Source of the DNA: Sphingobacterium griseoflavum
GTDB taxonomy: Bacteria; Bacteroidota; Bacteroidia; Sphingobacteriales; Sphingobacteriaceae
Direction: 5' to 3'
Assembly: GCF_014653155.1 (NCBI RefSeq)
Contig: NZ_BNAF01000004.1
Coordinates: 62,001-126,000, forward strand
Length of the DNA: 64,000 nt
Part shown: positions 6,234 through 48,222 of the stretch, piece after piece
Layout: each line of letters begins with the position of its first letter
Numbering within the stretch: position 1 is the stretch's first letter
Program-made: the position numbers and the translations under genes
The notes under the pieces: generated by a model
Seen by the model: only the letters and a program-made list of their open reading frames with translations
What the model was told of the DNA's origin: nothing
The model's database searches: none

Positions 6234-8108
6234 ATGAAAAACGCGCACCAACATCGGTCATTGGACGACGTACACGAAAGTATAACGGTGCACCAAGGAA
6301 AATCTAAACTGAAGCGCTTGCTCAGTTTTTTTGGACCAGCCTATCTCATCAGTGTTGGATACATGGATCCAGGGAATTGGGCGACAGATCTTGCTGGTGG
6401 TAGTCAGTTTGGTTATGCGCTGTTGTGGGTGCTGTTGATGAGCAATCTCATGGCGCTACTTCTGCAAAGTTTGTGTACGCGATTGGGGATAGTTCGTGGC
6501 AAGGATTTGGCGCAATGTAATCGGGAGATATACCCAAAACGGATGAACTTTGTACTTTACATCCTCGCTGAATTGGCTATTGCGGCTTGTGACTTGGCCG
6601 AAGTATTGGGTATGGCCATTGGGCTAAACCTCCTATTTGGTATCGATATTTTATGGGGTGTTTTGATCAGCTTTGTCGATACCTTTCTACTGCTTTACTT
6701 GCAGCGGTTGGGCATGCGGAAGCTGGAGCTTTTGATCGTTGGGCTTATCACCTTGATCGGGATATGTTTTTTTGTAGAAATGTTTTTTGCACGGCCACAG
6801 TTGGATGAAGTGATGCAAGGATTCATTCCGTCTTTACCCAACCATGCAGCTCTTTATATTGCCATTGGCATCATTGGTGCTACGGTTATGCCGCATAACC
6901 TTTACCTGCATTCGGCTTTGGTGCAGACCAGAAAAATTGAAAGATCAACCTCCGCTATCCGTCGGGCGATAAAGTATAATTTTTTAGACAGTGCCATCGC
7001 CCTCCAACTGGCATTTTTTGTAAATGCTGCCATCTTAATATTGGCGGCATCAGTTTTTCACAAAAACGGTATGCACAATGTGGCAGAACTTCAAGATGCG
7101 TACCGGCTTTTAGGTAGCACGCTAGGCACAGATTGGGCTCCAAAACTGTTTGCAGTAGCACTAATCCTTGCTGGCCAAAGTTCCACCATTACCGGAACCT
7201 TAGCCGGTCAGATTGTGATGGAAGGGTATCTTCAATTGCGGATCAGCCCCTTTTTGCGCCGTTTGCTCACCCGCTTGTTGGCCATTGTTCCTGCCATTGT
7301 CGTCATTGTGTTATTCGGCGATAAGGAAGTGGGGCAGATGTTGATTTTTTCGCAGGTACTCCTAAGCATGCAGCTCGCCTTTGCAGTGATTCCACTGATT
7401 CATTTTGTAAGCGATCGAGCAAAGATGGGAGAGTTCGCAATCGGTTCGTACACGCGCTTCTTCAGTTGGTTGATTGCAGCGGTGATAGCGGTGCTCAATT
7501 TTCAGCTGGTGTTTTCGGAAGTAGGCCGATGGTTGAGCCAGGTGGAGCACGTGTTGCTTCGTGTGCTGATTGTTGGTAGCGCTTTAGGCCTGTTGCTGCT
7601 GTTGCTGATGACCTTCGTTTATCCCTGGGTGCTAAGGCGTAGAGCCGTTCGTTCGGACGTACATACATCCTTTGAGGTATTGGAATTTAAGGCGGCTTCA
7701 TCTTTTCGAACGATCCTCTTGGCATTGGATTTTTCCAGATCGGACGAGAAGGTCATCAGTCAGGTTCTGCAACATAGTCCAAGCGCGTGCAAGCTCGTGC
7801 TGATTCATGTCGTGGAGAGTGCCAGTGTAAAATACACCGGCGGAACAACCGAAGACTTGGAGGCTAGGGAAGATAGGAGGCGTTTAGAGCAATATGCGAC
7901 ATTTTTACGCGATAAGAACTATGTCGTAACCTGTGCCTTGCGCTACAACGATAGGATAAACGCCATACGCATTTGTTGCGAACAGTACCATGCCGATTTA
8001 TTGATCGTTGGCAGCCACGGGCACACAGGGTTTAAGGACGTTATTTTTGGAGAAACGGTAAATAAATTGAGACACGCGGGGAAGATTCCGGTCCTCATAG
8101 CACAATAA
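6234..8108 (+). CDS. Nramp divalent metal transporter fused to a C-terminal universal stress (Usp) domain
   Basis: Proton-coupled Mn2+/Fe2+ importer of the Nramp/MntH family in the inner membrane, with an extra cytoplasmic domain. The transporter part (to about residue 460) has the metal-binding motif DPGN in helix 1 (GYMDPGNWATDLAGG), the MPHN motif in helix 6 (ATVMPHNLYLHSALVQTR) and about 11 hydrophobic helices. The last 140 residues (from FRTILLALDFS) are a UspA-like fold ending with the nucleotide-binding signature GSHGHTGFKDVIFGETVNKL. Typical MntH ends after the helices at about 410-440 residues. An in-frame ATG at 6186 would add 16 residues; I prefer 6234 because TAAATTTA at 6170-6177 resembles a promoter -7 box. 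The SDR gene follows after 10 nt. Confidence 0.9.
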   Translation: MKNAHQHRSLDDVHESITVHQGKSKLKRLLSFFGPAYLISVGYMDPGNWATDLAGGSQFGYALLWVLLMSNLMALLLQSLCTRLGIVRGKDLAQCNREIYPKRMNFVLYILAELAIAACDLAEVLGMAIGLNLLFGIDILWGVLISFVDTFLLLYLQRLGMRKLELLIVGLITLIGICFFVEMFFARPQLDEVMQGFIPSLPNHAALYIAIGIIGATVMPHNLYLHSALVQTRKIERSTSAIRRAIKYNFLDSAIALQLAFFVNAAILILAASVFHKNGMHNVAELQDAYRLLGSTLGTDWAPKLFAVALILAGQSSTITGTLAGQIVMEGYLQLRISPFLRRLLTRLLAIVPAIVVIVLFGDKEVGQMLIFSQVLLSMQLAFAVIPLIHFVSDRAKMGEFAIGSYTRFFSWLIAAVIAVLNFQLVFSEVGRWLSQVEHVLLRVLIVGSALGLLLLLLMTFVYPWVLRRRAVRSDVHTSFEVLEFKAASSFRTILLALDFSRSDEKVISQVLQHSPSACKLVLIHVVESASVKYTGGTTEDLEAREDRRRLEQYATFLRDKNYVVTCALRYNDRINAIRICCEQYHADLLIVGSHGHTGFKDVIFGETVNKLRHAGKIPVLIAQ

Positions 8109-8118
8109 TATACATCAT

Positions 8119-8907
8119 ATGCAAATATCATTAAAGGGAAAACGGGCCTTGGTTGGTGGGAGTAGTTCAGGTATTGGAAAGGCGATTGCCATTGCCTTGG
8201 CAGCTTGCGGAGCGGAAGTCGTGCTGATGGCTAGAAATGAGGATAAGCTTCGGGCAGTCCTGCAAGAGTTGGATGTCAGGAACAATCAGCATCATAGTTA
8301 TCTGCTGACGGATTTTAACGATTACGACAGACACAAAGAAAAGATGACCCATTTCTTCGCGAACGACCGGGTTGACATCCTGATCAATAATACGAATGGC
8401 CCATCGGCGGGCAATCTTTTTTCGAAAGAGGAGGGGGATTATCAGAAAGCCTTCGAGCTGCTCTTTCAAAATGCCGTATTTGCCAGCTCACTAGCCATAC
8501 CGTACATGCAGGATCAAAAGTTTGGTCGGATAATCAATGTTTCCTCCATGACGGTCAAGGAACCAGTTGACACACTTGTACTGTCCAACACCATGCGCAG
8601 CGCATTGGCTAGCTGGAGCAAATCGCTGGCGAGAGAAGTTGCCAAGCATAACATTACTGTTAATTCAGTTTTGACAGGATTTTTTGATACCGACCGCTTG
8701 AACGCCTTAATGAATGTACAGGCCGAAAATCAAGGCATTTCTTTTGCCGAAGTGAAGAAGTCGCGTATTTCTTCCATCCCGATGCGCCGGCTAGGAAGAC
8801 CGGAAGAGTATGGCAACTTAGTGGCCTTTTTGGCTTCTGAACAGGCTTCGTTCTTAACGGGCGCAGCTATCCCACTTGACGGTGGGGCAAGCGCTGCCTT
8901 TTTCTAG
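8119..8907 (+). CDS. SDR-family protein with atypical active site
   Basis: Rossmann-fold protein of the short-chain dehydrogenase/reductase superfamily (262 residues). The cofactor motif GGSSSGIGKAIAIALA is near the N-terminus, with INNTNG in the middle (like NNAG) and IPLDGGAS at the C-terminus. The catalytic Ser (INVSS) is present, but at the place where YxxxK should follow 13 residues later the sequence reads SNTMR, so Tyr is replaced by Ser and Lys by Arg. A subgroup annotated as FabG-like reductases shares this pattern as far as I recall, so it is probably a natural variant and not decay. It lies 10 nt after the Nramp-Usp gene, likely the same transcript. Substrate unknown. Confidence 0.88.
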   Translation: MQISLKGKRALVGGSSSGIGKAIAIALAACGAEVVLMARNEDKLRAVLQELDVRNNQHHSYLLTDFNDYDRHKEKMTHFFANDRVDILINNTNGPSAGNLFSKEEGDYQKAFELLFQNAVFASSLAIPYMQDQKFGRIINVSSMTVKEPVDTLVLSNTMRSALASWSKSLAREVAKHNITVNSVLTGFFDTDRLNALMNVQAENQGISFAEVKKSRISSIPMRRLGRPEEYGNLVAFLASEQASFLTGAAIPLDGGASAAFF

Positions 8908-8966
8908 CAAGGAGGTACAGATCTTGATTTAACAGATTGGAGAGGACTTTTCGGGCGTTTCCGCAA

Positions 8967-9842
8967 TTAGTCTTTCTCCAATTCATTCCGGTAATGCTTC
9001 AGTTGCTCCTGTATGGATTCGTCCAGCTCTGGGTAAGCGATGTCCTTGTATTGGGATAGTTTTTCAAGCAGTATTTTTGCTACCAAATACCGCGCGATAT
9101 CTTTGTTATCTGCTGGGATGATATGCCATGGTGCGTTTGGTTTGCTGGTTTTTTGGATCGCCTCCTCATAACACGCCATGTATCGATCCCACAATTTTCT
9201 TTCGGCAAGATCAGCGGGAGAGAACTTCCAATTGTGTTCGCCCTTGTCCAGTCGTCGTAGTAATCTGGTCTTTTGTTCCTCTTTGCTCAAGTGGAGATAA
9301 AATTTAAATACAATCATCTTGCTTTCCGTCAACAGCTTTTCAAAATTATTGATCTGTTTGAATCGCTCATTCCAAAAATTTTTCGGTATATCGTCAACAG
9401 CATAGATGCCAGGCAAATTTTCGTTTAGCAAATACTCCGGATGTACCCGCGTAACCAGCACATTCTCATAATGTGTTCGGTTGAAGATACCAAATTTTCC
9501 TTTGGGTGGTAGATTGATGTAGTGCCTCCATAGGAAATCGTGTTGAAGTTCCAACGATGTAGGCGTTTTAAAGCTGCTTACTTCCACCCCTCGTGCATTG
9601 AACTCTTTAAAAAGTTCACGGATTAGGCTATCTTTTCCGGCAGTATCCATGCCTTGAAAGCAAATTAAGACGTTGTAGCGGTTGTGAGCATACATCATGT
9701 CCTGAATCTTGGCGAGTTGCTTCCGAATTTTTTTCAGTTCATCTTTTGCCCATTTTGCCTCCATTTCCGCTGAGATATCAGTGGGATATTTATCTTGTTT
9801 AAAGTTATGGGATGCTTTAAAGCGTTTTCCGTATTTGCTCAT
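8967..9842 (-). CDS. Polyphosphate kinase 2 family protein
   Basis: PPK2-type phosphotransferase that uses polyphosphate to phosphorylate a nucleotide (or the reverse). The Walker A motif GMDTAGKDS is at residues 64-72. The lid/Walker B region has the family blocks LWRHYINLPPKGKFGIFNRTHYE and VTRVHP, then FKFYLHLSKEEQKTRLLRRL and WKFSPADL. At 291 residues it fits the single-domain PPK2 classes; the HDFLWR block occurs in class I and class III, so I do not assign AMP versus ADP as acceptor. It is transcribed divergently from the DUF2851 gene, with 80 bp between the starts. Confidence 0.92.
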   Translation of the reverse strand: MSKYGKRFKASHNFKQDKYPTDISAEMEAKWAKDELKKIRKQLAKIQDMMYAHNRYNVLICFQGMDTAGKDSLIRELFKEFNARGVEVSSFKTPTSLELQHDFLWRHYINLPPKGKFGIFNRTHYENVLVTRVHPEYLLNENLPGIYAVDDIPKNFWNERFKQINNFEKLLTESKMIVFKFYLHLSKEEQKTRLLRRLDKGEHNWKFSPADLAERKLWDRYMACYEEAIQKTSKPNAPWHIIPADNKDIARYLVAKILLEKLSQYKDIAYPELDESIQEQLKHYRNELEKD

Positions 9843-42811: not shown

Positions 42812-43666
42812 TCAATTGGAAAACAGCGAGGCTGCACCGATAATAGCAGCTTTTTCAGCATATTTACCGGTGTGGATCTCAAAATCTCGGGAAATTTTTT
42901 CGTTATAACTTTCAATGATGTCCCAGGCATTCGCGATGTTACCACCGATGATAAAGGTATCGCTCTTGTGTTTATCGGCAAAAAAATATAGAAAGTCGTA
43001 CAGGGAGGTGCTATACTCTTGCATCAAAAGATCGAAGGACGCCGTGTTTTGATGTTTCGTCCGAATATCTTTGAAGCCCTCTTCTCGCAGTCCGCTCAAT
43101 TCCTGAAAGCGCTTAATAAACCAGCGTGTTACAAGATGTTCCTCAAAAATATCGTGTTGATAGGGGCTGTTCCAAAGGTTGGCATCAAAGGCTTTATCGC
43201 CTCTGTTCCACACCGCCGATCCGAGTCCGGTTCCTAGCGTAACGCCTAAAATACGATTTCTATCCTGCAAATTTCCCGCAAAAATCTCACCTTGAAGAAA
43301 TGCTGCAGCGTCATTGATGAATCGAATGTCCTTCTCGGTATTCAAGCTATCCAAAATGCCGTTTGTTACACTAACTTGATATAGTGCGTCATACTTATCC
43401 TGGTTTTTCATCAAGGAGATGCCGTTTTCATAATCAAAGGGTCCGGGCATAGCGATTCCCAATTTTGATATAACGCCGTTGCAGCTTGCTATGGCTTGCG
43501 AGATTGAGGAGCTCCAAGAAAAGAAAATCGATTTAGCATCAGACCTTGAATTTACATGGCATCGAGCGATGGACTCCTCGAGAATTTGCCATGTACTGAT
43601 GTCGACGACAGCAGACGTGATATGTGTTCCACCTATATCAGAAGCTACCACGAAATTACTGCTCAT
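42812..43666 (-). CDS. ROK-family sugar kinase-like protein
   Basis: 284-residue protein with the ROK/hexokinase-fold phosphate motif [15 protein letters not shown] at the start, [29 protein letters not shown] (catalytic Asp region) and [13 protein letters not shown]. The zinc motif CxCGxxGC of most ROK proteins is absent. By similarity it should phosphorylate a hexose such as glucose, but the substrate is not proved. It is the last gene of the aromatic operon and overlaps aroC by 11 nt, so it is translationally coupled despite having no known role in that pathway. Confidence 0.87.
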
Positions 43667-44750
43667 CCTTATATGCTTTAAATCTTAAAAAATGGTCTGC
43701 TAAAACGATAGCCGTCATAGCCTCTACAATGATTACTGCTCTGGATACGACACAGGGATCATGTCTCCCTTTACCAGAAATACTGGTGATATCTCCTGCG
43801 TCATTGATAGTTTCTTGATCCCGCATAATAGTTGCTACCGGTTTAAATGCTGTTCGGAACGTGATATCCATACCATTTGAGATACCACCCTGTATGCCCC
43901 CGGAAAAATTAGTGCGCGTGCTGATTCTGTCACCTTCTTTAATAAAGATATCGTTATGTTCAGAACCGCGCATTGACGCCCCGATAAATCCTGAGCCGTA
44001 TTCAAAACCGTGCACCGCATTGATGCTCATCATAGCTTTTGCAAGATCCGCATGTAATTTGTCGAATACAGGTTCGCCAAGACCTACCGGTACGTGGCGC
44101 ACAACGGTAGAGATCTTTCCGCCAATAGTGTCCCCGTCCTTCCTTATACGATCAATCAATGCGATCATCTCATTGGCAGTTGCGGGATCTGCACATCTAG
44201 CAATGTTGGCTTCGCGAAGATCCAATAGGTTTTCGAGATCACTGAAATCCAGATTTGGTGATTCCAGAGTTCCGACAGCCGAGACATGGGCAAAGATTGC
44301 TATTCCTTGGCTTTTTAGAAACATTTTTGCAACCGCACCGGCGGCCACACGTGCTGCGGTCTCCCGGGCAGACGAGCGTCCTCCGCCGCGGAAATCGCGT
44401 ATCCCGTACTTTTTTTGGTAGGTATAATCCGCGTGCGAGGGTCTGTACTTATCGGAGATATGTGAATAATCTTTGGATCGTTGGTCTTCGTTAGGGATAA
44501 GGATAGCAATGGGCGTCCCCGTCGACTTACCTTCAAATACGCCGGAAAGGATTTGTGCTACGTCACTTTCTTTTCGCTGTGTGGTAATTTTCGACTGTCC
44601 AGGTTTACGTTTGTCCAGCTCAGATTGGATGAATTCTTCGTCTATATCGATATTAGGGGGACATCCATCTATAATAACACCTATTGCTTTTCCGTGTGAT
44701 TCGCCAAAGGTGGTAATTTTAAATAGATGGCCAAATGAGTTTCCAGCCAT
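43656..44750 (-). CDS. aroC: Chorismate synthase
   Basis: Last step of the shikimate pathway: EPSP to chorismate, using reduced FMN. It begins [24 protein letters not shown], the diagnostic N-terminus, and has [64 protein letters not shown] and the C-terminal [18 protein letters not shown]. 364 residues is full length. It lies 70 nt downstream of aroA across two hairpins and overlaps the ROK kinase gene at its end. Confidence 0.97.
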
Positions 44751-44820: not shown

Positions 44821-46074
44821 TTATTTATGGATTTGAAAGCCTTGTTGTTCCAAATGTAGCCAATAATCGGGATAGGATTTTTCCACCACCTGTGGTTCAT
44901 TGATAGACACTTCTTTGAACACGAGCGCGAGGGGTGCAAAAGCCATCGCCATGCGATGGTCTTCATACGTATCGAACGTTACATGTTCCACATTGTAGAC
45001 ACCATTTGTTTTGATATGGTAGGTTTCGCCTTCGGCAACGATGGTGGCACCAAATTTTTCAATTTCCGTTTTGAGCGCCGCTAGCCGATCTGTTTCCTTG
45101 ATTTTCAGGGTTTCCACTCCCTTTATCGAAATATCCCTCCGCAAAGCGGCTGCCACCGCTACTACGGTTTGTGCCAAGTCTGGACAAGCTTTGAAATCAA
45201 ACAATTTTTTTTCGGAACCCTCATTCACTTTTGTGATCAGCAGGCCGTCGTGCTGAAACGAGCTGGCTACGCCAAAGTGCGTCATGATATCGACTATTGC
45301 GATGTCACCCTGTAAGCTATGTGCCTTCAGTCCTGGAAGCAGAATGGAGCCGTTTGTTGATAAAGCAACGATAGCATACCAATAAGAGGCAGCGCTCCAG
45401 TCGGGCTCGACAAAAATGGTTGCAGGCTTAAACGTTTGCGGCAGTATTTCGATGACGTTATTATCCCAAGTGTGGTTTATTCCAGCTTCCCGCAGCATAT
45501 CAAGGGTCATCGTAACGTAAGGTCGGGAGGTTAGTTCACCTATAATTTCAAGTGCAAGGCCTTTTTTCAGGGATGCCGCAATAAGTAATAGAGATGAAAT
45601 ATATTGACTGCTGATATTTCCCTGAATAGCGATATGGTTTTTTGTTTCTCCAAGTCTTCCACGAATCATCAATGGGGGATAGCCCTCTCGGTCACTATAG
45701 GTGATGTTTGCCCCCAGCGTCTGTAAGGCTTCGACCAATATTCCTATCGGGCGTTGCTGCATCCGCTCTGTTCCTGTCAGCAAAAATTCCCCTTCCAAAA
45801 GATTGAGGTACGACGTCAAGAAACGCATGGCTGTGCCCGCAGGTCCTATATCGATGGTTACAGGTTTATCCGCTTCCGGCTCTGCTGCTTGCTTGATTGC
45901 GTGTTGCATAATCAGCGTATCGGCTGCTTCAGAGAGGTTTTCTACAGCAACCAATCCTTTGCTCAGCGCTTGGATAATAAGAGCACGGTTGCTCTCTGAT
46001 TTGGAACCAGTAAGCTGAACCGTGCCTTTAGTGTTTTTTGTTGAATGGGAGAGCCTGATCGTCGATATACCCAT
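44821..46074 (-). CDS. aroA: 3-phosphoshikimate 1-carboxyvinyltransferase (EPSP synthase)
   Basis: Transfers enolpyruvate from PEP to shikimate 3-phosphate. 417 residues with the substrate motifs TGSKSESNRALIIQALS near the N-terminus, GPAGTAMRFLTSYL, LTGTERMQQRPIGILVEAL (the usual RP block) and, near the end, IKETDRLAALKTEIEKFGA and DTYEDHRMAMAFAPLAL. All sites for a working enzyme seem present. Its ATG overlaps the aroG-CM stop in TAATG, so translation is coupled. Confidence 0.95.
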   Translation of the reverse strand: MGISTIRLSHSTKNTKGTVQLTGSKSESNRALIIQALSKGLVAVENLSEAADTLIMQHAIKQAAEPEADKPVTIDIGPAGTAMRFLTSYLNLLEGEFLLTGTERMQQRPIGILVEALQTLGANITYSDREGYPPLMIRGRLGETKNHIAIQGNISSQYISSLLLIAASLKKGLALEIIGELTSRPYVTMTLDMLREAGINHTWDNNVIEILPQTFKPATIFVEPDWSAASYWYAIVALSTNGSILLPGLKAHSLQGDIAIVDIMTHFGVASSFQHDGLLITKVNEGSEKKLFDFKACPDLAQTVVAVAAALRRDISIKGVETLKIKETDRLAALKTEIEKFGATIVAEGETYHIKTNGVYNVEHVTFDTYEDHRMAMAFAPLALVFKEVSINEPQVVEKSYPDYWLHLEQQGFQIHK

Positions 46075-47180
46075 TATGCCTCCGCTACAGAGTTAGCATT
46101 CATAATTTCGTTCTGTTTGCGAATTGACTCGTTGTGAAGCAACTCTAAATATCTTGTTGCAAAGTCTTCACTAAGCGAAAGTGCTTTAGCAAGCTGTACA
46201 CGTTTCTGTACAATCTCGTCCCAACGGTTTACTTGAAGTATAGTGACGTTGTTGTCTCTTTTGTACTGACCGATCTTCTCCGCTATTTTCATACGATCAC
46301 CAATTTGTTGTAAAATGGCATCATCCAGTTTGTCGATTTGCTGACGTAATTCGGCCAACTTATCCTCAAAGGCCGGGTTGTTGGACGCAGCATGACGTAC
46401 CGATAGGTTGTCCAACAAGTCCGCTAACGCAGCAGGGGTAACCTGTTGTTTTGCATCCGTCCAAGCGATAGAAGGGTCTATGTGCGACTCGATAATCAAT
46501 CCCTGTAAGTCCATATCCATCGCCTTTTGCGCAATATAAGGAATAAGCTCACGATTGCCACAGATGTGGCTTGGGTCGTTAATGATCGGCAAGTCTGGGC
46601 AAGCGGATTTCAACTGGATCGCCAAATCCCACATCGGCTCGTTACGGAAAGCCGTTTTCTCGAAGGAAGAAAATCCACGATGGATGGCCCCCAGTTTTTT
46701 TATCCCCGCGCGGTTTACCCGTTCAAGTGCGCCAATCCAAAGTGATAAGTCCGGGTTAACTGGGTTTTTGATCAACACAGGGATGTCCACTCCAACCAGT
46801 GCATCAGCAATTTCCTGCACCGTGAACGGGTTTGCGGTAGAGCGTGCACCGATCCATAAAACATCAACCCCAGCGGCCAATGCCTCTTCCACGTGTTTTG
46901 CCGTGGCCACTTCGGTCGCCGTCAGTAAGCCTGTTTCTTCTTTGGCACGTTTCAGCCAGGTCAAGCCTACACTTCCGATGCCTTCAAATTCTCCCGGTCT
47001 TGTGCGTGGTTTCCAAATGCCAGCACGAAGCACATTAACTTTGCCCGAATTGGCCAGTAAATGCGCTGTAGATACCAATTGGTCTTCTGTTTCTGCGCTA
47101 CAAGGGCCAGCAATGATTAAGGGCTTGTCGCCTGTATCTATCCAAGATTTCAATGGGACGATGTCTAATGTATGTTTCAT
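46074..47180 (-). CDS. Bifunctional DAHP synthase / chorismate mutase
   Basis: Joins the first step of the shikimate pathway (PEP plus erythrose 4-phosphate to DAHP) to chorismate mutase, the branch to prephenate. Residues 1 to about 260 form the DAHP synthase barrel of the AroG-beta/KDO8P-like type (PLIIAGPCSAE, LRAGIWKPRTRPGEFEG, WIGARSTANPFTVQEIA, LIKNPVNPDLSLWIGAL, HRGFSS, DPSHICGNREL, LIIESHIDPS). Residues from about 275 (FEDKLAELRQQIDKLDDAIL) are an AroQ-type mutase. The C-terminal fusion is known from Bacteroidota (e.g. Prevotella), where it conveys prephenate feedback. It sits 31 nt after pheA. Confidence 0.93.
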   Translation of the reverse strand: MKHTLDIVPLKSWIDTGDKPLIIAGPCSAETEDQLVSTAHLLANSGKVNVLRAGIWKPRTRPGEFEGIGSVGLTWLKRAKEETGLLTATEVATAKHVEEALAAGVDVLWIGARSTANPFTVQEIADALVGVDIPVLIKNPVNPDLSLWIGALERVNRAGIKKLGAIHRGFSSFEKTAFRNEPMWDLAIQLKSACPDLPIINDPSHICGNRELIPYIAQKAMDMDLQGLIIESHIDPSIAWTDAKQQVTPAALADLLDNLSVRHAASNNPAFEDKLAELRQQIDKLDDAILQQIGDRMKIAEKIGQYKRDNNVTILQVNRWDEIVQKRVQLAKALSLSEDFATRYLELLHNESIRKQNEIMNANSVAEA

Positions 47181-47211: not shown

Positions 47212-48036
47212 CTATACTTTTTCGTTTTTAATGTATTCGCCCATGATGTTGAAATTTACGGTATGCTTTAATACCTTACGTATGGCAGCATCATAGTCAC
47301 TTTGCTTCTTCCACTCTACATCGACGTAAAAATCATATTCATTTCTTTTTCCCACAACAGGCATCGACTGAATCTTGCTTAGATTTACATGTTGTTCGGC
47401 GAAGCACTGTAACACGTTGGCTAAGGATCCGACTGCGTTTCCGGTCTGGAAAGAAAGGGAAGCCTTGTTGGCATTCTTCTGCTCGACCACCTCATTGGAA
47501 AGAATGAGGAAACGTGTCGCATTTTTTTTGTTTGTTTCTATCCGTTTTTCTAATATTTCCAAACCATATAGCTTTGCTGCCATAGCGCTGGCTATAGCAG
47601 CTGTGTTTTTTAATTGATTGTCGGCGATGTTTTTTGCACAGGCTGCCGTGTCCATTCCTTCTTTTATCGTCCAGTCAGGGAAATCACTTAAAAATTCATC
47701 GCATTGTCGGATAGCTATAGGGTGTGATTCAACGAATTTTACATCGCCCAACTTGACGCCCGGATACACGATCAGGTTTTGCTGAATGTTGAGATGTACC
47801 TCTCCGATGATGTGAAACCGATAATCGCGAAGCAAATTATAATTGGGCAAGATGCTTCCTGCGATAGAGTTTTCGATCGCCATGACAACATAATCTGCTT
47901 TTCCCTGCTTCAGCATATCGCATGTTTTCTTGAAGGATTCACATTCGATTGTCTCGATTTCTTCTCCGAAGTATTTAAAAGCAGCTTCTTCATGAAAAGA
48001 GGCCTTGACACCTTGTATTGCAATTTTTGTTTTCAT
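47212..48036 (-). CDS. pheA: Prephenate dehydratase
   Basis: Converts prephenate to phenylpyruvate for Phe synthesis. 274 residues: the catalytic part (IAIQGVKASFHEEAAFKYF, VMAIENSIAGSILPNYNLL, VESHPIAIRQCDEFL, and TRFLIL where TRF is the catalytic Thr motif) and a C-terminal ACT domain (SLSFQTGNAVGSLANVLQCFAEQHVNLSKIQSMP). The usual Phe-binding motifs GALV and ESRP of feedback-inhibited enzymes appear as GSLA and IQSMP, so allosteric Phe control may be weak. It is the first structural gene of the operon and is preceded by a transcription attenuator. No tyrA or aminotransferase gene is present. Confidence 0.95.
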   Translation of the reverse strand: MKTKIAIQGVKASFHEEAAFKYFGEEIETIECESFKKTCDMLKQGKADYVVMAIENSIAGSILPNYNLLRDYRFHIIGEVHLNIQQNLIVYPGVKLGDVKFVESHPIAIRQCDEFLSDFPDWTIKEGMDTAACAKNIADNQLKNTAAIASAMAAKLYGLEILEKRIETNKKNATRFLILSNEVVEQKNANKASLSFQTGNAVGSLANVLQCFAEQHVNLSKIQSMPVVGKRNEYDFYVDVEWKKQSDYDAAIRKVLKHTVNFNIMGEYIKNEKV

Positions 48037-48051
48037 TTATTAGTGGAGTAT

Positions 48052-48087
48052 AAAAAAAGTCCCGAATTGTTATCCGAGACTTTTTTT
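48052..48087 (-). terminator. Attenuator terminator upstream of pheA
   Basis: On the minus strand A7-GTCTCG, a 10-nt loop, CGGGAC-T7: a 13-bp stem with one G-U pair, ending 16 nt before the pheA ATG. The 5' arm (with AGTCTCGG, plus-strand 48074-48081) can pair instead with CCGAGATT at 48110-48117, at the end of the leader ORF, which would prevent the terminator. Confidence 0.85.
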
Positions 48088-48100
48088 GCTTATTTGGCAG

Positions 48101-48169
48101 CAGCATATCAATCTCGGCTCTTATTGCTAAAATAAAAGTATCCAAAATAAAAATATGTCCTATATGCTG
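48101..48169 (-). promoter_or_regulatory. Antiterminator and protector pairing elements of the pheA leader
   Basis: Two competing pairings can be written. Antiterminator: CCGAGATT (48110-48117) with AGTCTCGG of the terminator arm. Protector: CAGCATAT, codons 2-5 of the leader ORF (48162-48169), with ATATGCTG just after its stop codon (48101-48108), a perfect 8 bp. This is the usual 1:2, 2:3, 3:4 logic of ribosome-dependent attenuators. Confidence 0.7.
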
Positions 48170-48173
48170 TCAT
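48108..48173 (-). CDS. Leader peptide of the pheA-aro operon attenuator
   Basis: A 21-residue ORF between a consensus promoter and a terminator. Residues 6-15 read TYFYFGYFYF; in all it has four Phe (all TTT) and five Tyr codons, far above chance. The ribosome stalling there for lack of charged tRNA-Phe or tRNA-Tyr would leave the codons for SRD free to form the antiterminator; a ribosome reaching the TGA would cover them. This is the pattern of pheL-type leaders. It is about 12 nt from the predicted transcript start. Confidence 0.85.
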   Translation of the reverse strand: MTAYRTYFYFGYFYFSNKSRD

Positions 48174-48191
48174 TGTCTCGATTTTGTATGT

Positions 48192-48222
48192 CAAATGTAG
48201 AGCTTAAATTTTAATATGCAAA
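48192..48222 (-). promoter_or_regulatory. Consensus promoter of the pheA-aro operon
   Basis: On the minus strand TTTG (48222-48219), exactly 19 nt, TACATTTG (48199-48192). Both boxes match the Bacteroidota consensus. The leader ORF starts 19 nt after the -7 box. Confidence 0.85.

Follow-up and report, generated by a model that had tools for sequence, protein, structure and literature searches.

The locus lies on the minus strand of the 64-kb window, by which we mean the whole stretch of Sphingobacterium griseoflavum DNA that was analysed. It carries pheA for prephenate dehydratase (47212 to 48036; PF00800, E 1.9e-57), aroG-CM for a DAHP synthase fused to chorismate mutase (46074 to 47180; PF00793 and PF01817), aroA for EPSP synthase (44821 to 46074; TIGR01356 above cut-off) and aroC for chorismate synthase (43656 to 44750; TIGR00033 above cut-off), so that the gene identities given in the original prediction are upheld by Pfam and NCBIfam. 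A gap of 31 nt separates pheA from aroG-CM, aroG-CM and aroA overlap by 1 base, and aroC follows aroA after 70 nt. A ROK-family gene (42812 to 43666; PF00480) overlaps the end of aroC and is possibly the last gene of the operon. The tyrA gene (PF02153) is found outside this operon in S. griseoflavum, upstream of hisG at 7319-9485 on the minus strand of L192, with an aminotransferase gene (named by eye) beside it, and no aromatic leader is visible at this tyrA/aminotransferase locus. Among the matches listed, the nearest named pheA belongs to S. deserti (96% identical), and another Sphingobacterium genome reaches 98%. A pheA was found in 92 of 93 Sphingobacterium genomes. It may be noted that at G018:C1:3519923-3520742 (Sphingobacterium) pheA is present in two overlapping fragments, one with an internal TGA, which represent either a broken gene or a sequencing error.

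Ahead of pheA on the same strand we read a candidate promoter (48222 to 48192), consisting of TTTG (48222-48219), 19 further bases and TACATTTG (48199-48192). These elements are present as predicted, and they fit the Bacteroidota-type -33/-7 consensus. The leader ORF runs from the ATG at 48173 to the TGA at 48108 and its 21 codons, MTAYRTYFYFGYFYFSNKSRD, were correctly described as including 4 Phe and 5 Tyr codons. The control codons are codons 7-15 (48155 to 48129), which read YFYFGYFYF with 4 Tyr and 4 Phe. The putative antiterminator 5′ arm, region 2, is CCGAGAUU (48117 to 48110), backed by covariation and a swap test. The terminator 5′ arm, region 3, is AAAAAAAGUCUCGGAU (48087 to 48072), of which AGUCUCGG can also pair with region 2, and the 3′ arm with its U-run, region 4, is AUUCGGGACUUUUUUU (48067 to 48052), likewise backed by covariation. 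The proposed pairing of CCGAGATT (48117-48110) with AGTCTCGG of the terminator 5′ arm was recovered as 8 bp with one G-U. The terminator was expected to have 13 pairs and to end 16 nt before pheA; the hairpin is there, although it has 16 pairs with its A-U flank included (48087-48052), and the measured distance to the ATG at 48036 is 15 nt. A pattern scan for sigma-70 promoters and terminators did not return this terminator (48087-48052) among its matches. The leader RNA (150 nt) has a folding energy of -35.6 kcal/mol (z -4.13), and 0 of 200 shuffles were as good.

The pairing that would involve the start of the leader differs from the one first proposed. It was suggested that codons 2-5 pair with the bases after the stop codon, and CAGCATAT (48169-48162) and ATATGCTG (48108-48101) are indeed exact complements, but they do not form an aligned element of the family. 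Instead, covariation backs (A/G)CAUAU at codons 6-7 as region 1, which in S. griseoflavum is ACAUAU (48158 to 48153) with its outer A unpaired, the partner being AUAUG at the leader stop. The corresponding extension of region 2 is AUAUGCUG (48108 to 48101). The 8 bp that CAGCAUAU of codons 2-5 (48169 to 48162) can form with this extension is, from the sequence, a local possibility in S. griseoflavum.

To follow the leader across relatives we used a set of 184 loci upstream of pheA, repeats included. These came from genomes of the genus and the family, from 80 named loci and, outside the family, from 38 loci. Repeated genomes are among these 184 (L001-L125 represent 91 distinct upstream regions), and L164, with 10 bases, was left out of the counts. 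In the Bacteroidia panel behind the other families, 43 of 148 genomes had a match to pheA at E 1e-20, so very diverged or absent pheA genes are unrepresented. An ATG ORF with at least 5 aromatic residues per ten was found in 172 of the 184 loci. In Sphingobacteriaceae a leader precedes pheA in all 110 distinct upstream regions, 109 of them starting with ATG and one (L167) with GTG. At least 6 residues in ten are aromatic in 109 of the 110 regions (L167 misses); shuffles reach this level in 0.9% of cases and the reverse strand in 1 of 110. The S. griseoflavum leader itself reaches 8 of 10, a value that 0 of 5000 dinucleotide shuffles of its own upstream region attain. Among the 38 loci from other families of Bacteroidia, 27 reach 5/10 (shuffles 2.9%) and 24 reach 6/10 (shuffles 0.4%), the 27 leader loci being drawn from 15 families.

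On removing near-duplicates (including L144), ten loci that lack a hairpin by our rule and L160, for which the script chose a wrong ORF (a second, plausible leader ORF is visible), the 172 leader loci gave a non-redundant set of 56 family and 25 other-family leaders. In this set the aromatic fraction of the whole family leader is 0.415 when it is read in the true frame and 0.098 and 0.130 in the two alternatives; the corresponding values for the other families are 0.358, 0.136 and 0.121. Tyr and Phe are used to a similar extent in the family (mean 3.9 and 4.0 per leader), with 3.3 and 4.6 in the other families (n=25). A mix of the two had been thought less common than Phe-only leaders, but all 25 other-family leaders used contain both, and this composition is normal in Bacteroidia. 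A Trp codon occurs in 18 of the 56 family leaders (in 16 within the densest ten codons) and in 7 of the 25 others. When 24 Sphingobacterium genomes were scanned with a covariance model of the leader, each gave a single strong match, which lay before pheA, and in genome G000 the single match at E up to 0.01 leaves no second copy at that threshold. Outside Sphingobacterium the model performs poorly: 7 of 16 genomes had any match at E 0.01, three of these at the pheA leader. Seven of the weaker full-length matches in other genomes were read by eye, and six were without an aromatic leader. The seventh, L206 in the relative G092, is a Thr/Ile-rich ORF with a GTG start followed by a CTTCC hairpin and T-run, and it precedes an aspartokinase-like gene (named by eye); we regard it as a candidate thr-type attenuator.

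A hairpin with a T-run lies between the leader and pheA in 162 of the 172 leader loci, and six of the ten loci that fail the rule could be read (L095-L098, L105, L179) and have a hairpin with an interrupted T-run. The distance between hairpin and pheA ranges from 6 to 89 nt. Covariation was tested on alignment A1 of the 56 non-redundant family leaders with 500 shuffles, five measures and slid controls; it may be noted that these shuffles take no account of kinship. For the terminator, 12 of 15 pairs have changed on both sides, 0 of 500 shuffles matched it on all measures, and it exceeds every slid control on every measure. For the antiterminator (regions 2:3), 6 of 8 pairs have changed on both sides, again with 0 of 500 shuffles on all five measures. 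Its values for cells paired, score, pair types and pairs changed lie above those of the slid controls; its cells changed on both sides, however, number 9, and three of six slid controls are higher (11, 13 and 14). The two helices, which are mutually exclusive, both covary. The pairing of regions 1 and 2, (A/G)CAUAU with AUAUG(U/C), has 82.9% of cells paired and 21 cells changed on both sides. Three of its five measures, including both-side changes and score, were reached by 0 of 500 shuffles, and the others by 247 and 43 of 500, which argues for this helix more weakly than for the terminator and antiterminator.

An alignment-free comparison of native with swapped region 2:3 duplexes points the same way, with 0 of 2000 permutations as good in both groups. 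The native mean is -15.2 against -13.6 kcal/mol for swaps in the family and -14.9 against -10.2 kcal/mol in the other families; natives fall in the best quarter of their swaps in 25 of 56 and 21 of 25 cases, respectively. The gap is small in the family, where the arms are alike. L147 is a counter-example, its native antiterminator being slightly worse than its swaps. Native pairs from this comparison include GCGGGA/UCCCGC in L151, L152 and L154, and AAACGAGG/CCUCGUUU in L159. The alignment of the upstream region proposed with the original prediction finds the Phe/Tyr codons and the paired segments conserved within Sphingobacteriaceae with covarying helices, and beyond the family the segments pair better than swapped ones; the loss of conservation that was to refute the prediction is not seen. 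Two other pairings were tried and rejected. One, a helix of the minimum-energy fold that joins UUUUGG in the aromatic run to CCGRGA, contains many G-U pairs, and 57 of 500 shuffles reach its covariation score. A CGAGAC/CGGGA-like element abutting the Sphingobacterium leader ATG was not significant as a partner of region 3 (140 of 2000, n=36).

The spacing of these elements was then compared with the positions that a ribosome would occupy. A median of 10 nt separates the last aromatic codon from region 2, in the family and in the other families alike, while the end of the stop codon lies 6-39 nt past the last aromatic codon in the family and 9-48 nt in the others. It is the RNA arm and not the end of the peptide that keeps its position. 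A ribosome at the stop codon, with the footprint assumed for it, would cover at least part of region 2 in all 56 family leaders and in 23 of the 25 others, and the whole of region 2 in 48 and 15 of them, respectively. When this assumed footprint is masked, the terminator forms in the predicted fold of 56 of 56 and 25 of 25 leaders. With the ribosome placed on the aromatic codons, all 427 positions in the family and 177 of the 182 in the other families allow the 2:3 helix before region 4. The stall folds discriminate only weakly, as shuffled spacers also give 5 bp of 2:3 in 67% and 65% of trials, with energies of -8.0 and -12.6 against the native -17.1 and -20.5 kcal/mol. When the full transcript is folded to equilibrium, the terminator wins in 52 of the 56 family leaders and 21 of the 25 others even if a ribosome is stalled, so that the switch has to act kinetically, during transcription. 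Classic attenuators likewise work during transcription. Without a ribosome, and before region 4, the 2:3 helix is still predicted for 49 of the 56 family leaders and 15 of the 25 others, which makes the protector helix 1:2 a modest and not a strong guard.

Of the 56 family leaders, 54 have TAnnTTTG no more than 80 nt from their ATG, 51 of them together with an upstream TTG, whereas mononucleotide shuffles give 6.1%; in the other families the count is 15 of 25, with 5.8% in shuffles. Among the 54 family leaders with this -7 box, 25 have 18 nt between its end and the ATG, as does the leader in the window (48192-48173), and the leader 5′ UTR should therefore be very short. By eye no obvious Shine-Dalgarno site is seen before the leader ATG. 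Bacteroidota are known for initiation without Shine-Dalgarno pairing. With translation starting so close to the promoter, tight coupling of ribosome and polymerase would be needed.

From the elements, conservation, codon run, covariation, spacing and gene order described here we infer how the promoter would be used, where transcription would terminate, where the ribosome would stall and that both amino acids would be sensed. RNA polymerase would start just 5′ of the leader ORF, and a ribosome would translate the leader behind it. When charged Phe-tRNA and Tyr-tRNA are ample, the ribosome would reach the stop codon and cover region 2, regions 3 and 4 would pair, and transcription would stop ahead of pheA. 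When charging of Phe-tRNA or Tyr-tRNA is scarce, the ribosome would stall on the Tyr/Phe run and leave region 2 free, which starts about 10 nt past the last aromatic codon, so that 2:3 could form before region 4 is complete, with read-through into pheA, aroG-CM, aroA and aroC. Pairing of region 1 with the extension of region 2 would favour termination when the leader is untranslated. The layout had been likened to trpL/pheL-type attenuation, and its defining features that a sequence can reveal are present, save that the protector helix, the weakest of them, is only tentative. We put the probability that the pheA leader is a ribosome-mediated Phe/Tyr transcription attenuator at about 0.9, a reading built on comparative sequence data.

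The most serious alternative is that the Tyr codons are mere filler and the signal is the charging of Phe-tRNA, as in pheL. The first gene, pheA, makes the Phe precursor and tyrA is outside the operon in S. griseoflavum, as such a design would have it, but Tyr is present in each of the 25 other-family leaders used, its family mean of 3.9 is close to the 4.0 of Phe, and in 16 of the 27 other-family leader loci tyrA is within the gene run that the leader heads. We consider a Phe-only signal unlikely. Far less probable still is a hairpin that owes nothing to translation, either a constitutive terminator or an RNA that senses a protein or metabolite and codes for the peptide by coincidence. The frame-specific aromatic content (0.415 against 0.098 and 0.130), the way region 2 tracks the aromatic run wherever the stop codon falls, and the covariation of both mutually exclusive helices all speak against it, even if it would fit with the fact that no Rfam leader model reaches its cut-off. 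Equally improbable in our estimate is that the same alternative structures control translation and not transcription of pheA. The short distance of 15 nt between the end of the terminator and the start of pheA would suit such control in S. griseoflavum, but this distance varies from 6 to 89 nt among the loci, the T-run follows the hairpin in 162 of 172, and 12 of 15 terminator pairs have changed on both sides.

Taking the Phe/Tyr attenuator as the preferred reading, we compared the genes that follow it. The order pheA-aroGCM-aroA is kept in 101 of 101 Sphingobacteriaceae loci. A ROK-family gene is next in line in 54 of these, and the other 47 stop at aroC (26) or aroA (21), most of the latter 21 being covered for only about 3 kb past the pheA start. 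In the other families aroG-CM lies downstream in 26 of 27 leader loci, the exception (L145) ending with its contig, and an aminotransferase gene and tyrA are often present between pheA and aroG-CM. By contrast, aroG-CM is downstream in only 1 of 11 leaderless loci (Fisher p 2.5e-7 against the leader loci, a value that ignores kinship, five of the 11 belonging to one family). In 3 of the 11 genomes with a leaderless pheA (G271, G331, G356) an aromatic leader with a terminator is found directly before aroG-CM, which in G356 is the second of two tandem copies. Seven of the 11 have no leader before aroG-CM either, and aroG-CM of G269 is preceded by a doubtful 43-residue TTG ORF with no recognised terminator. 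Judged by gene order, the leader tends to accompany the gene for DAHP synthase-chorismate mutase, and we read it as a control of pathway entry by Phe and Tyr (Trp in a minority) more than of the Phe branch, and this tie to pathway entry would explain the Tyr codons where tyrA lies elsewhere. On a wider view, the odds seem to us about even that the leader is a class-wide, probably ancestral attenuator of aroG-CM, which would move with that gene, read the charging of Phe and Tyr tRNAs (in some genera Trp) and set the entry into the pathway. In E. coli it is TyrR, TrpR and isoenzymes that set this entry.

Other leaders were seen in Sphingobacteriaceae. Upstream of trpE a Trp-rich ORF (WW or WWW; ATG, GTG or TTG start) is present in all 30 loci read (L228-L257), and in S. 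griseoflavum it lies at about 3110-3048 on the minus strand of L193. A hairpin and T-run follow these ORFs, as judged by eye, and we regard the trpE leader as a putative second aromatic attenuator of the family. It resembles the pheA leader in that an ORF is followed by a hairpin and T-run, and differs in its Trp codons and separate locus. Translational attenuation at trpE was considered and rejected, as the trpE start on which it rested is too early, most homologs aligning from about residue 30-39, and a terminator-like hairpin follows the leader. Upstream of hisG we noticed a His-rich ORF, MTHLFTHHIHFHHRQFGDM (6 His; about 6711-6652 minus in L192), after which no clear terminator was recognised by eye. 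Among L121, L122 and L065, contigs titled as a Sphingobacterium thalpophilum MAG and a Legionellaceae MAG have Daejeonella-like leaders, and one titled Parapedobacter has a Sphingobacterium-like one; these three are probably misbinned or misnamed.

The mechanism is known in kind. The pheL leader of enterobacterial pheA (Rfam Phe_leader, RF01859) is a Phe-only leader with a competing terminator and antiterminator; an amino-acid-rich leader ORF, a terminator before pheA and a competing antiterminator are shared with it, whereas the Sphingobacteriaceae leader mixes Phe with Tyr, and sometimes Trp, and stands before a series of genes that includes the one for DAHP synthase-chorismate mutase. The thr (Thr/Ile) and ilv (Ile/Val/Leu) attenuators likewise read several amino acids of a shared pathway through one leader, though the amino acids and the pathway differ. 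On the S. griseoflavum leader the RF01859 model scores 20.8 bits against a gathering score of 55 (E 0.44) and the Thr_leader model (RF00506) 28.8 bits against 55 (E 0.0018), the peptide having no Thr run. No Rfam family reaches its gathering score in the 64-kb window. The Bacteroid-trp motif (RF01692) is a cis-regulatory RNA of Bacteroidetes whose name ties it to trp genes (PMC2864571); it has no match to the pheA leader region up to E 10 and no gathering-level match to L193, the S. griseoflavum trpE locus. In Flavobacterium psychrophilum a structured element without an Rfam match, conserved in other Flavobacteriaceae genera, is reported 5′ of pheA, along with strong clues to leader-peptide attenuation 5′ of amino-acid operons (PMC9723704). 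This element concerns the same gene in the same phylum, and the passages of that paper on it give no peptide, codons or structure (PMC9723704). For Bacteroides thetaiotaomicron 5′ UTRs there is a general mention of short ORFs reminiscent of leader peptides (PMC7366714). A description of a Phe/Tyr leader in Sphingobacteriaceae was not found in the titles and abstract openings of the open-licence papers that the searches returned. We claim no priority for the attenuation mechanism in Bacteroidota; what is added is the codon content, the covarying competing helices, the spread and the link to aroG-CM.

A Phe/Tyr attenuator of this kind, with counterparts in 15 further families of Bacteroidia, would place the roots of the design deep in another phylum. 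The leader may also serve as a simple reporter for transcription-translation coupling in Bacteroidota, and it offers a candidate regulator of aromatic synthesis in that phylum.
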